The position numbers and the translations under genes were made by a program. From Cellvibrio sp. KY-GH-1 (GTDB taxonomy: Bacteria; Pseudomonadota; Gammaproteobacteria; Pseudomonadales; Cellvibrionaceae), in assembly GCF_008806975.1 (NCBI RefSeq), contig NZ_CP031728.1, positions 2,170,001-2,234,000 of the forward strand: 64,000 nucleotides of DNA, in the 5' to 3' direction. Within the stretch, counting starts at the first letter, position 1, and each line of letters starts with the position of its first letter. Shown here piece by piece: positions 59,337 to 62,695 of this stretch. The notes under the pieces are model-generated. The model made no database searches and had not been told where the DNA came from. It saw nothing but the letters and a program-made list of their open reading frames with translations.

Positions 59337-59753
59337 TTATTTCACAACCCTGAGTCCGGGCCGTTTCGCCCCATCCCCTATTGACTTAACCGGTGGTGTA
59401 GGTGGGGTAGGAGGCGGCACCGGCGGCTGGGGATGTGCCTCCGCCTCAAACATCATCCCCTGGCCATTTTCACGGGCATAGATACCCAGAACGGCGCCTG
59501 TGGGGATATACAGATTATTCACCACACCACTAAAACGAGCATTAAAGGAAACCGCCGTATTATCCATAAAAAAATCTTTCACTGCAGTGGGTGATATATT
59601 CAAGATGATCTGACCATCTTTGTTGACATGCTGCTGGGGTACCTGGGTTCCTTGCACATGGGCATCCACCAAAATATGAGGGGTGCAATTATTGTCCAAT
59701 ATCCATTCGTAGATGGCGCGCAAAAAGTAAGGGCGACTGGAAGACATGGACAT
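59337..59753 (-). CDS. sspB: ClpXP specificity-enhancing factor SspB
   Basis: A 138-residue adaptor that delivers ssrA-tagged proteins to ClpXP. The core begins RPYFLRAIYEWILDNNCTPH and includes VSFNARFSGVVNNLYIP, the tag-binding region. The tail is proline-rich (PPVPPPTPPTPPV) and ends in GLRVVK, a likely ClpX-binding peptide. The open frame extends to 59885, but ATG 59753 has AAGGA seven bases upstream and matches the family start; the extra 44 residues overlap a terminator. The usual upstream neighbour sspA is missing here. Confidence 0.94.
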   Translation of the reverse strand: MSMSSSRPYFLRAIYEWILDNNCTPHILVDAHVQGTQVPQQHVNKDGQIILNISPTAVKDFFMDNTAVSFNARFSGVVNNLYIPTGAVLGIYARENGQGMMFEAEAHPQPPVPPPTPPTPPVKSIGDGAKRPGLRVVK

Positions 59754-59815
59754 AAAATTTTCCTTGAAAGTAAACAACATCATCAAGTTACAGGGATTCA
59801 ACAATAGACTCAAAC

Positions 59816-59843
59816 AAAAAGGGCGACTTGCGTCGCCCTTTTT
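59816..59843 (-). terminator. Intrinsic terminator of petA-petBC
   Basis: Stem AAAAAGGGCGAC / GTCGCCCTTTTT with loop TTGC, 16 bp after the fused cytochrome gene, within the longer arms AAACAAAAAGGGCG and CGCCCTTTTTGTTT that recur at 31721-31755. Confidence 0.92.
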
Positions 59844-59859
59844 GTTTGTTGCAGATCTA

Positions 59860-62094
59860 TCAGTGAATTTCTCGCCAGAACTCACGGTTCAGGAAGTATA
59901 CAAAGATAAATAAAATTACCAGAAAGCCCAAGACATAGTATCCAATGCCCTGACGCTTTACAGCGATTGGCTCAGCCACATACTCCAGGAAGTTAACAAG
60001 GTCATACACCGCCTCATCAAACTCAGCTTGAGACATAGAACCCTTAACTTTACCTTCTTTGAGCGCACCGCAATGCTCATCGATTTCCACCTGACCAACA
60101 TCGTTGCGCAACGCGCCACCGTGATGATTCAGTTTTGGGCCGGCACCGCATTCAAGCAAGCCTTGCGGGCCGATTAACACGTGCGGCATACCCACATTAG
60201 GAAATACACGGTTGTTAACACCCCATGGGCGGGTTTCATCTTTGTAGAAGTTACGCAAATAGGTATAAATCCACTCAGGTGAGCGTGCACGCGCAACCAA
60301 AGTCAAATCCGGAGGAACCACACCAAACCAAATTTTGGCTTGCTGGGGCTTCATAGCAATCTCCATCAATTGACCGATACGTTGATCGCCGAAAATCAGG
60401 TTTTGCTCCATCACATCATGGGGAATACCCAAGTCATCAGCTACACGCTCAAAACGGGAATATTTCAGTGAATGGCAACCCATACAGTAGTTCGTGAAAT
60501 ATTTGGCGCCACGCTGCAATGAATCCTTGTCATTCAGGTCAGCCTCCATGTAATCACAAGGAATCGCACCGCAATTGAAAGCACCTTCAGATGCCACCGC
60601 TTTGATAGGTACGACCGCCAGAATCACAAACAGGATAAAGCCAGCAGCAACCAACAAGCCCGGCAATCCTTTGGCCTGAACACGAGTCGGCTCAACCAAA
60701 TCTTTATCACGCGCCGCCAACAAGGGCAGAACCGCGAAGATAGCCGCTAGCAGGAAGCAGAACCCAATCAGCAGCGCAGGTACATCACCACCGATATAAA
60801 CAGCACCCATCCAGGCAAAGATCACCGCAAAAGCACCACTCAACACCCACGAGGTTTTGGATTTGGCTTTTTCTGCACTCGTAGTTGTCCAAACCGGCAT
60901 AGTTACGAAATATGCAAAGTAGAACGCTGTGGCAATTTGCGATAGCAGGGTTCTACCTTCCGTTGGAGCCTTAACACCCAAATACCCGAGAACAACGAAC
61001 ATGGAGGCAAATGCAATCAGCGCAATACGTGGAATATGTCCGCGATAGCGCATAGATTTGACCTTGCTGCGATCCAACCAGGGCAATACGAACAGAATAG
61101 CGATTGCCGCTGCCATAGCCACAAAGCCTAAGAACTTGGCGGTCAATACCATTGGGCCGAGTTCGATTTGCATGGTCACTGCGCGCAGTACCGCATAGAA
61201 AGGAGTGAAGTACCATACCGGTGCGATATGTGTTGGTGTCTTCAGGTTGTTAGCTTCTTCGAAGTTGGCGTATTCAAGGAAGAAACCGCCCATCTCCGGC
61301 ATAAAGAACATTATGAAACAGAAGGCAAACAGGAATACTGTGATCCCCACCAAATCGTGCACTGTATAGAACGGATGGAAAGGAACGCCATCGCGCGGAA
61401 TGCCATTCTCATCTTTGTTCTTTTTGATCTCAACACCATCAGGGTTGTTTGAACCCACTTCGTGCAGCGCCAAAATGTGCATCATTACCAAAGCTAACAA
61501 TACAATTGGCAACGCCACTACGTGCAGGGCGAAGAAGCGGTTCAAGGTAATACCGGAAATCAGGTAATCACCACGAATCCACTGCACCAAATCTTCCCCA
61601 ATACCGGGAATAGCACCGAATAGCGAAACAATTACCTGTGCACCCCAGTAGGACATCTGCCCCCAAGGCAATACATAACCCATAAAGGCTTCTGCCATGA
61701 GCACCAGATAGATGGTCATACCGAAGATCCACACCAGTTCACGTGGAGCCTTATAAGAACCGTACATCATGCCGCGGAACATATGCAGATAAACAACGAT
61801 GAAGAATGCAGAAGCGCCGGTAGAGTGCATGTAACGCAGTAACCAACCGAAATCCACATCGCGCATAATGTATTCAACAGACGCGAAAGCACCTTCTGCT
61901 GAAGGGTTGTAGCTCATGGTCAACCAGATACCGGTAACCAATTGGTTAACCAATACCAGCAGCGAAAGCACACCAAAGAAATACCAGAAGTTAAAGTTCT
62001 TGGGTGCGTAGTATTTACCCATATGGGTATCCCAGGCACGTTGTACCGGAAGACGCTTATCAACCCATTGCCACAATCCAACTAACCAATTCAT
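59860..62094 (-). CDS. Fused cytochrome b / cytochrome c1 of the bc1 complex
   Basis: A single 744-residue reading frame joining the two usual subunits. Cytochrome b: haem ligands H90, H104, H191 and H206 (RYMHSTGASAFFIVVYLHMF and FALHVV...VMMHILALH) and the PEWY-type quinol site, seen here as APVWYFTPFYAV. A joining part (about residues 412-500) has extra hydrophobic segments (SWVLSGAFAVIFAWMGAVYI and LLIGFCFLLAAIFAVLPLL). Cytochrome c1: haem motif CMGCH at residues 537-541, PPDLTLVARARSPEW, and a C-terminal anchor helix. ATG 62094 has AAGGGG six bases upstream and lies one base after the petA stop. It resembles Bradyrhizobium fbcH in principle, whose product is cleaved after synthesis. Confidence 0.93.
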   Translation of the reverse strand: MNWLVGLWQWVDKRLPVQRAWDTHMGKYYAPKNFNFWYFFGVLSLLVLVNQLVTGIWLTMSYNPSAEGAFASVEYIMRDVDFGWLLRYMHSTGASAFFIVVYLHMFRGMMYGSYKAPRELVWIFGMTIYLVLMAEAFMGYVLPWGQMSYWGAQVIVSLFGAIPGIGEDLVQWIRGDYLISGITLNRFFALHVVALPIVLLALVMMHILALHEVGSNNPDGVEIKKNKDENGIPRDGVPFHPFYTVHDLVGITVFLFAFCFIMFFMPEMGGFFLEYANFEEANNLKTPTHIAPVWYFTPFYAVLRAVTMQIELGPMVLTAKFLGFVAMAAAIAILFVLPWLDRSKVKSMRYRGHIPRIALIAFASMFVVLGYLGVKAPTEGRTLLSQIATAFYFAYFVTMPVWTTTSAEKAKSKTSWVLSGAFAVIFAWMGAVYIGGDVPALLIGFCFLLAAIFAVLPLLAARDKDLVEPTRVQAKGLPGLLVAAGFILFVILAVVPIKAVASEGAFNCGAIPCDYMEADLNDKDSLQRGAKYFTNYCMGCHSLKYSRFERVADDLGIPHDVMEQNLIFGDQRIGQLMEIAMKPQQAKIWFGVVPPDLTLVARARSPEWIYTYLRNFYKDETRPWGVNNRVFPNVGMPHVLIGPQGLLECGAGPKLNHHGGALRNDVGQVEIDEHCGALKEGKVKGSMSQAEFDEAVYDLVNFLEYVAEPIAVKRQGIGYYVLGFLVILFIFVYFLNREFWREIH

Positions 62095-62095
62095 C

Positions 62096-62695
62096 TTAAG
62101 CCCCTTGATCTTCGCCAATCACAACTACAGCATCACTCTCATAACGATGAGGAGGAACTTCCAGGTTCAGTGGAGCAGGAACGCCGATGTAAACGCGGCC
62201 TGCCAAATCGTATTTCGAACCATGACATGGGCAGAAGAAGCCACCCTGCCATTTCTCACCACCCAGGTCCGCCGCGTGTACATCCGGACGATACATAGGT
62301 GCACAACCCAAATGGGTACAAACGCCCAACAGGATCGCAAACTCTTTATTGATGGCACGCTCTGGATTTTTTGCATACTCAGGTTGCTGAGGCTCTTCCG
62401 AGTTTGCGTCGAGCAATACTCCCAACTCCTCTACCTTTTTCAGGCTATCCAGTGCGGCTTGGGTACGACGCACCACAAACACCGGTTTACCGCGCCACTC
62501 AACGGTGACCATAGCGCCCGGCTCTACCTTGCTAAGGTTGTATTTCACAGGAGCACCTGCAGCTTTCGCCTTGGCACTCGGGTTCCAGGAACCTACAAAC
62601 GGCACTGCTGCACCAACCACACCAACCGCACCCACTGCACAAGTGGCTCCGATTAATACACGACGGCGCGTCTTATTTACTGCGTCATTACTCAT
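62096..62695 (-). CDS. petA: Rieske iron-sulfur subunit of the bc1 complex
   Basis: A 199-residue protein with a twin-arginine-type N-terminus (RRRVLIGATCAVGAVGVVG, acting as anchor) and 2Fe-2S ligands in CTHLGC and CPCHGSKYD. It transfers electrons from quinol to cytochrome c1. It is the first gene of the bc1 operon; its stop codon is one base before the start of the fused b/c1 gene, so translation is coupled. Confidence 0.96.
   Translation of the reverse strand: MSNDAVNKTRRRVLIGATCAVGAVGVVGAAVPFVGSWNPSAKAKAAGAPVKYNLSKVEPGAMVTVEWRGKPVFVVRRTQAALDSLKKVEELGVLLDANSEEPQQPEYAKNPERAINKEFAILLGVCTHLGCAPMYRPDVHAADLGGEKWQGGFFCPCHGSKYDLAGRVYIGVPAPLNLEVPPHRYESDAVVVIGEDQGA

Follow-up and report, generated by a model that had tools for sequence, protein, structure and literature searches.

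The window, i.e. the whole 64,000-nucleotide stretch of DNA analysed here, carries on its minus strand a single gene for cytochrome b, a linker and cytochrome c1 (fused petBC, 59860..62094, 744 amino acids). The reading frame starts with an ATG at 62094, ends with a stop codon at 59860-59862 and has zero internal stops in the minus-strand translation; the plus-strand translation of 59860-62094 is full of stops. Thus, the coordinates given by a preceding sequence-only reading are correct, and the open frame assigns the gene to the minus strand. Directly upstream, on the same strand, lies the gene for the Rieske iron-sulfur subunit (62096..62695; TIGR01416, Rieske_proteo). The cytochrome b part comprises residues 1-402 (60889..62094, minus strand), with the Pfam domains PF00033 (cytochrome b N-terminal, residues 27-214) and PF00032 (cytochrome b C-terminal, residues 280-393). 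The cytochrome c1 part comprises residues 502-744 (59863..60591, minus strand), and PF02167 (cytochrome c1) covers residues 522-742 in the same frame as cytochrome b. The closest solved chains by sequence are 8smr_I for cytochrome b (query residues 9-409) and 8smr_J for c1 (query residues 513-741), from a structure that we take to be the P. aeruginosa bc1 complex. As the first match ends at 409 and the second starts at 513, a linker of about 100 residues lies between them.

An alignment of the window protein with 79 fused relatives revealed that the haem b ligands H90, H104, H191 and H206, C537, C540 and H541 of the CMGCH motif (residues 537-541, 60472-60486) and M636 are invariant. The earlier observation of four haem histidines and CMGCH in a single frame is backed by both the Pfam domains and the ligand columns. 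All features expected of a bc1 complex are present, i.e. the N- and C-terminal cytochrome b domains, a CXXCH-type c1 with a C-terminal membrane anchor (hydrophobic stretch at residues 717-735) and a Rieske neighbour. With its single frame and adjoining Rieske gene, the locus is rightly described as one fused gene within a gammaproteobacterial bc1 operon. The gene is single-copy in the window's genome (5.76 Mb), and a named Cellvibrio record shares 92% identity across the whole fused protein.

Two further observations concern the locus. The Qo motif PVWY (residues 292-295, 61210-61221) is invariant in the same alignment, as are the helix-D haem histidines 191 and 206 (61477-61524), which are 15 residues apart; presumably, this motif and spacing represent a known subtype with b6-like spacing. 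Furthermore, between petBC and sspB, the window and genome G018 both lack a gene that we named sspA by eye (regions compared: window 59337-59860, L194 and L193:5864-6502). An sspA-like gene occupies this position in G012, which belongs to the same genus, and in the inspected loci of genus g9 and of families f14, f30 and f44. When the G012 protein served as query against the window's genome, it gave weak matches only (identity of 37% or less across some 90 residues, lowest E value 1.9e-8), so sspA looks to have been lost from this genome while sspB remains.

Occurrence of the fusion

The sequence-only reading had allowed for a sequencing error that removed a stop and a start between the two parts, and had proposed to search the family and its relatives for the fusion. 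Our searches of the family, order, class and phylum were limited to genomes of at least 90% completeness. A single open frame of at least 682 residues is found in 129 of the 130 family genomes searched, and in the remaining one, G031, the gene is split by contig ends. Two forms differ in the length of the linker: 89 family genomes match the long form in one piece, another 40 have the short form, with open frames between 682 and 715 residues in length, and the split gene of G031 makes up the remainder. Cytochrome b and c1 share one frame in all 62 family loci that were fetched. In the order sample, cytochrome b was found in 137 of 145 genomes, 51 of which are fused and spread over 14 of 42 families, so the fusion is not confined to the window's genome; 48 of these 51 loci were opened, and three (G239, G234 and G209) were judged by frame length. 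Because the long open frame is kept throughout the family, the fusion is not a sequencing error. Together with its occurrence in 14 families of the order, this rules out an artefact of sequencing or assembly, the probability of which we regard as practically nil.

Outside the order, none of the 113 genomes of the class is fused at its best match, to which the count is confined, the second matches being weak (about 20-30% identity). The two candidates there with frames of more than 600 residues, G392 (669) and G376 (628), seemed fused by length and proved not to be fused once opened; G489 (645) and G525 (614) of the phylum sample also looked fused by length and are not. Of the 119 genomes from outside the order in the phylum sample, 3 carry the fusion, and each of these belongs to family f204; G484 and G535 end at a contig edge. 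This family is probably that of Bradyrhizobium. Among 80 named records, the 22 fused ones belong to Cellvibrionaceae, Halieaceae, Porticoccaceae, Spongiibacteraceae (Zhongshania) and Pseudohongiellaceae, or come without a family. The 58 unfused ones include Pseudomonas, Marinobacter, Halomonas, betaproteobacteria and one record titled Cellvibrionales (UBA2034). In the Pseudomonas records examined, the b and c1 genes are indeed separate, as had been assumed. The fused gene is best explained by an in-frame joining of petB and petC, an ordinary bc1 gene pair, in an ancestor shared by several related families within the order.

A signal-peptide-like helix at the junction

By hydropathy, the linker contains three hydrophobic segments (residues 417-435, 441-459 and 479-497), and an AlphaFold model shows three helices (413-432, 440-461 and 479-501), in agreement with the two or three additional helices initially proposed for the joint. 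The model, built with 80 sequences, reaches only a medium quality (mean pLDDT 65.7). Some of its most confident regions lie within residues 351-500 (block means 65-93), the third linker helix stops at residue 501, and pLDDT falls below 50 at residues 502-504.

The nature of the third helix (60592..60660, minus strand) becomes apparent from a comparison with 56 unfused loci. There, cytochrome b typically has a short tail, ...MPFYTRMEKTKPVPERVTG or ...RVTMK, the c1 start overlaps the b stop by 1 or 4 bases in 45 of the 56 cases, and c1 starts with a signal peptide that often ends LP..A.A/A (slashes mark the cut). In the fused proteins, the tail continues into a former signal peptide that lacks a start, which in the window reads ...EPTRVQAKGLPGLLVAAGFILFVILAVVPIKAVA/SEGAF. 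By eye, helix 479-501 matches the signal peptide of unfused c1 (unfused ...LPLVAMA/AEE, fused ...LPLKAVGA/E). It ends in PIKAVA, and the junction PIKAVA/SEG has a signal-peptidase-like site with a predicted cut after residue 501. The statement that c1 comes without its own signal peptide is thus not upheld, as the helix is, by alignment, the old c1 signal peptide and keeps a peptidase-like site. As to the related idea that the extra helices place c1 in the periplasm, two of the three are not required for this, being absent from 58 of 105 fused genes, and the third is the signal-peptide helix.

Close to the helix end, all 105 fused proteins have a proline with I, L, V or M as the next residue, and this proline served as alignment anchor. 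At the successive places after it, K occurs in 91, A in 95, V in 94, G or A in 103 and A or S in 100 of these proteins. We derived a position model from the 56 unfused c1 signals, the training sites of which were placed by rule (that of L135, at least, looks misplaced). In 87 of the 105 fused proteins, this model scores the junction higher than any other position along the chain; the window site scores 13.5 at residues 501/502, and the next best 8.1. It is important to note that the junctions have a mean score of 10.2 versus 17.6 for true c1 signals, that some other site outscores the junction in 18 of 105 proteins, including the two rows of f44 g89, where the junction ranks 2nd and 8th, and that position -1 of the best junction site is occupied by G instead of A in 40 of 105. 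Moreover, a lysine at about -5 is unusual for a signal-peptidase site. A separate fused lineage, made up of Pseudohongiella-like records and f44 g89, has lost the KAVGA wording, and its endings are, by eye, of the TAHA/S or AEA/A type.

Proposed maturation of the fused protein

We propose that petBC gives rise to a single precursor. The eight cytochrome b helices would insert as usual, and the hairpin formed by the first two linker helices, where present, would add two helices and leave the topology unchanged. The former c1 signal peptide would take the chain across the membrane, and c1 would fold and receive its haem in the periplasm. Signal peptidase would then cut after the AxA-type site (residue 501 in the window), so that cytochrome b would be left with one or three additional helices at its C-terminus, and c1 would become a subunit of its own, held by its C-terminal anchor. 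To our knowledge, the experimentally known fused cytochromes b/c1 amount to one alphaproteobacterial example that we can name, Bradyrhizobium FbcH, which Thony-Meyer and colleagues reportedly found to be cleaved into two proteins. From the sequence evidence, we regard a corresponding cut of the precursor into two subunits as very probable; the tail helices would stay on cytochrome b.

An uncut polypeptide, in which a covalent link between b and c1 persists and the linker provides supernumerary helices of the complex, seems unlikely to us. The AxA-type ending is conserved while the remaining helix varies, it persists with other wording in the Pseudohongiella relatives, the site is absent where c1 is a separate gene, and FbcH is reportedly cut. 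Such a polypeptide would nevertheless agree with the good modelling of the linker helices, and the conserved lysine in the site region could serve another role. A precedent would be the extra N-terminal helix of Aquifex c1 (PMC10041115).

A much remoter alternative is that translation of c1 begins independently, at an internal start codon ahead of the signal helix. Of the 105 fused genes, 102 do have an ATG, GTG or TTG in frame no more than 18 codons before the core of this helix, but an ATG is present in only 62, and a start together with a Shine-Dalgarno-like sequence in 11 (3 with ATG). The window itself has only TTG codons in this region, one of them with a Shine-Dalgarno-like sequence. 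An internal c1 start is not conserved among the 105 genes. The corresponding control is weak, as a Shine-Dalgarno-like sequence is found at only 10 of 56 unfused c1 starts, perhaps because of the overlap with petB.

An optional hairpin and a candidate exchange cassette

The first two linker helices (413-432 and 440-461) form a hairpin (residues 403-466, 60697..60888, minus strand) that is present in 47 of the 105 fused genes examined. In these 47 long forms, K+R per loop amounts to 1.91 between helix H and the first hairpin helix, 0.64 between the two hairpin helices and 3.43 between the second one and the signal helix. The charges fit a hairpin that runs from cytoplasm to cytoplasm, so that c1 would end on the same side with or without it.

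Phylogenetic trees were based on 161 hand-chosen rows, i.e. the window, 62 of the 129 other family genomes, 42 of the 45 other fused and 49 of the 86 unfused genomes of the order, and 7 from outside the order. L171 and L174 were left out of the separate cytochrome b and c1 trees, the order trees on residues 1-335 and the hhalign comparison. Long and short forms alternate inside genera (the window's genus, g9, g14, g48, g49 and g81), and the joint tree of all fused rows requires 14 changes between them, 11 of which are forced for the long form by well-supported branches. Within the family, the count depends on the region of the protein. Residues 1-335 give 12 changes (bootstrap 11-13, at least 7 forced), whereas residues 343-402, which make up the last two cytochrome b helices G and H (60889..61068, minus strand), give a single change in 100% of the bootstrap trees. 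The DNA trees agree, with 14 changes versus 1. On residues 343-402, all 28 short forms of the family fall into one clade (support 99/99); on residues 1-335, a single clade of short forms is rejected by the AU test (p-AU 0.00015). On the 60-residue cassette, AU tests of enforced genus groups gave rejection in three of four cases, g48 (0.019), g9 (0.035) and g49 (0.048); the fourth, the grouping of g38 with g3, is not rejected (p 0.23). The short gene of g9 illustrates the pattern. It shares 91% of its bases with its long sister over residues 1-100 and 58-75% over residues 340-402, where it reaches 83-90% with short genes of other genera, a best-of-many value that is inflated for that reason. 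At their end, the short forms resemble unfused cytochrome b (MPFWT.REK..PEP).

Because 12 changes on residues 1-335 face only one on residues 343-402, we conclude from the trees that helices G-H probably travel as one exchangeable cassette with the neighbouring hairpin or with the lack of it. Homologous recombination would be the simplest cause of such joint movement. Synonymous codons do not confirm it, which leaves room for parallel change: in eight hand-picked pairs, synonymous identity to the long sister amounts to 143 of 292 codons in the cassette versus 2057 of 3740 elsewhere, and in two of the eight the cassette identity is not lower. Many independent, clean hairpin losses with parallel amino acid changes in G-H and no recombination would suit these partly sister-like codons; between genera, the synonymous signal is close to saturation. 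We consider this scenario possible, though rather doubtful. It has to face the single short-form clade on residues 343-402, which is found on the protein level and corresponds to one change in the DNA tree, and its rejection on residues 1-335; besides, repeated random deletions would hardly restore the ending typical of unfused cytochrome b. Exchange of a cassette remains our preferred reading.

As to the origin of the hairpin, its hhalign comparison with cytochrome b helices gave 20.1 for G-H, 14.8 for F alone and 8.3 for E-F, and a descent from helices E-F was discarded on these values. In a shuffle run, the hairpin aligned with G-H end to end with a score of 23.3, which none of 300 within-helix column shuffles reached (mean 11.4, sd 2.3, max 20.1). 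Since hhalign's own probability for this likeness is 10%, a tandem duplication of G-H is put forward as a suggestion only. The reverse route, in which the short form results from a deletion between the two G-H copies, is unlikely, as it would not give one short-form clade. In a more far-reaching version, which we hold tentatively and at somewhat less than even confidence, G-H plus hairpin would represent two old alternative versions of the joint that have repeatedly recombined between genera, perhaps between families, and the hairpin, duplicated from G-H, would stay in the mature complex as a switchable, built-in supernumerary element.

Apparent splits and exchanges of the c1 half

In family f14 (L135, L139 and L143), cytochrome b and c1 are encoded by separate genes. 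Here, the linker helix is still attached to the C-terminus of cytochrome b (TMNGGIG...VGPLWL...), where it forms a ninth helix that looks like a relic of the fusion. This tail is devoid of a peptidase-like site (scores -0.7 to 1.5 at the three loci), and the f14 c1 has its own signal peptide. The f14 cytochrome b is located inside the fused group (SH-aLRT 99; 89/96 in the 88-row tree), and its c1 groups with those of the unfused f30, f31 and f27 and the fused f13 (82-99). Apparently, f14 descends from a fused gene whose c1 half was replaced, which amounts to an un-fusion. Family f30 may be a second case, its cytochrome b being placed beside the fused f10 (support 91; 90/97).

A related observation was made for the fused genes of f13 (L107, L108, L111 and L112). 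Their c1 parts are found among the unfused f14, f30, f31 and f27 (support 9-99, depending on the branch), and the cytochrome b parts of three of the four rows group with the fused f40 (100/97). This may reflect another exchange of the c1 half.

The number of changes between the fused and the unfused state varies with the tree: 3 in the joint tree (2 forced), 4 with cytochrome b (and again 4 in the 88-row tree, bootstrap 4-5, 1 forced), 6 with residues 1-335 and 5 with c1. Estimates of the total of fusion and split events thus range from 3 to 6, depending on the tree.

Relation to known systems

The sequence-only reading had rightly placed the known fusion, fbcH, in another class. In the wider samples, the Bradyrhizobium-like f204 is the only fused family. 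Like FbcH, the window protein has cytochrome b followed by c1 in one open frame of a single gene. A signal-peptide-like helix is also seen by eye at the junction of the alphaproteobacteria-like fused genes L181-L183 (...SAKA/AEGG, ...DARA/EGD). Unlike the window gene, however, the FbcH-type genes of f204 belong to another class, their linker is dissimilar by eye, and they have no hairpin. The window cytochrome b is 45-46% identical to the fused f204 genes versus 62-80% to unfused members of its own order, and f204 also holds an unfused genome (G487). Because the unfused cytochromes b of the order are closer than the fused ones of f204, and because the junctions differ, the gammaproteobacterial and Bradyrhizobium fusions are probably separate events. 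The fused kind is a recognised annotation class, since PMC12456017 names fbcH beside petB and petC, calls it 'cytochrome b/c1 subunit' and accepts it in place of petB/C.

Other bc1 complexes share single traits with the window protein. The P. aeruginosa complex (8smr) offers the nearest solved b and c1, but these are two separate chains of 403 and 233 residues, and there is no hairpin. According to PMC10041115, Aquifex-type cytochrome c1 retains an extra N-terminal helix in the complex, and supernumerary subunits (R. sphaeroides subunit IV, QCR9/UQCR10) add transmembrane helices to the three-subunit core. The Aquifex helix, however, belongs to the c1 subunit, whereas the window helix matches the signal peptide of its relatives and leads on from cytochrome b. 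Likewise, supernumerary subunits are separate proteins, whereas the window hairpin lies within the fused polypeptide itself and is similar to cytochrome b helices G-H. A full-text literature search, with subscription journals mostly outside its coverage, listed no title on the gammaproteobacterial fusion among its matches. This is weak evidence that the fusion has previously gone unreported.

Discussion

Overall, we consider it likely that a petB-petC fusion, a precursor cut into two subunits and a cassette of helices G-H with the hairpin jointly account for the gene found in the window. The data establish a second and wide occurrence of fused cytochrome b/c1, this time in Gammaproteobacteria, including culturable relatives of Cellvibrio. 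The apparent reversions (f14 and perhaps f30) and the optional helix pair provide natural experiments on the delivery of c1 and on the value of a covalent linkage. A repeated exchange of an internal segment within cytochrome b, if true, would be unexpected, since the common assumption for core bioenergetic subunits is that each evolves as a unit.
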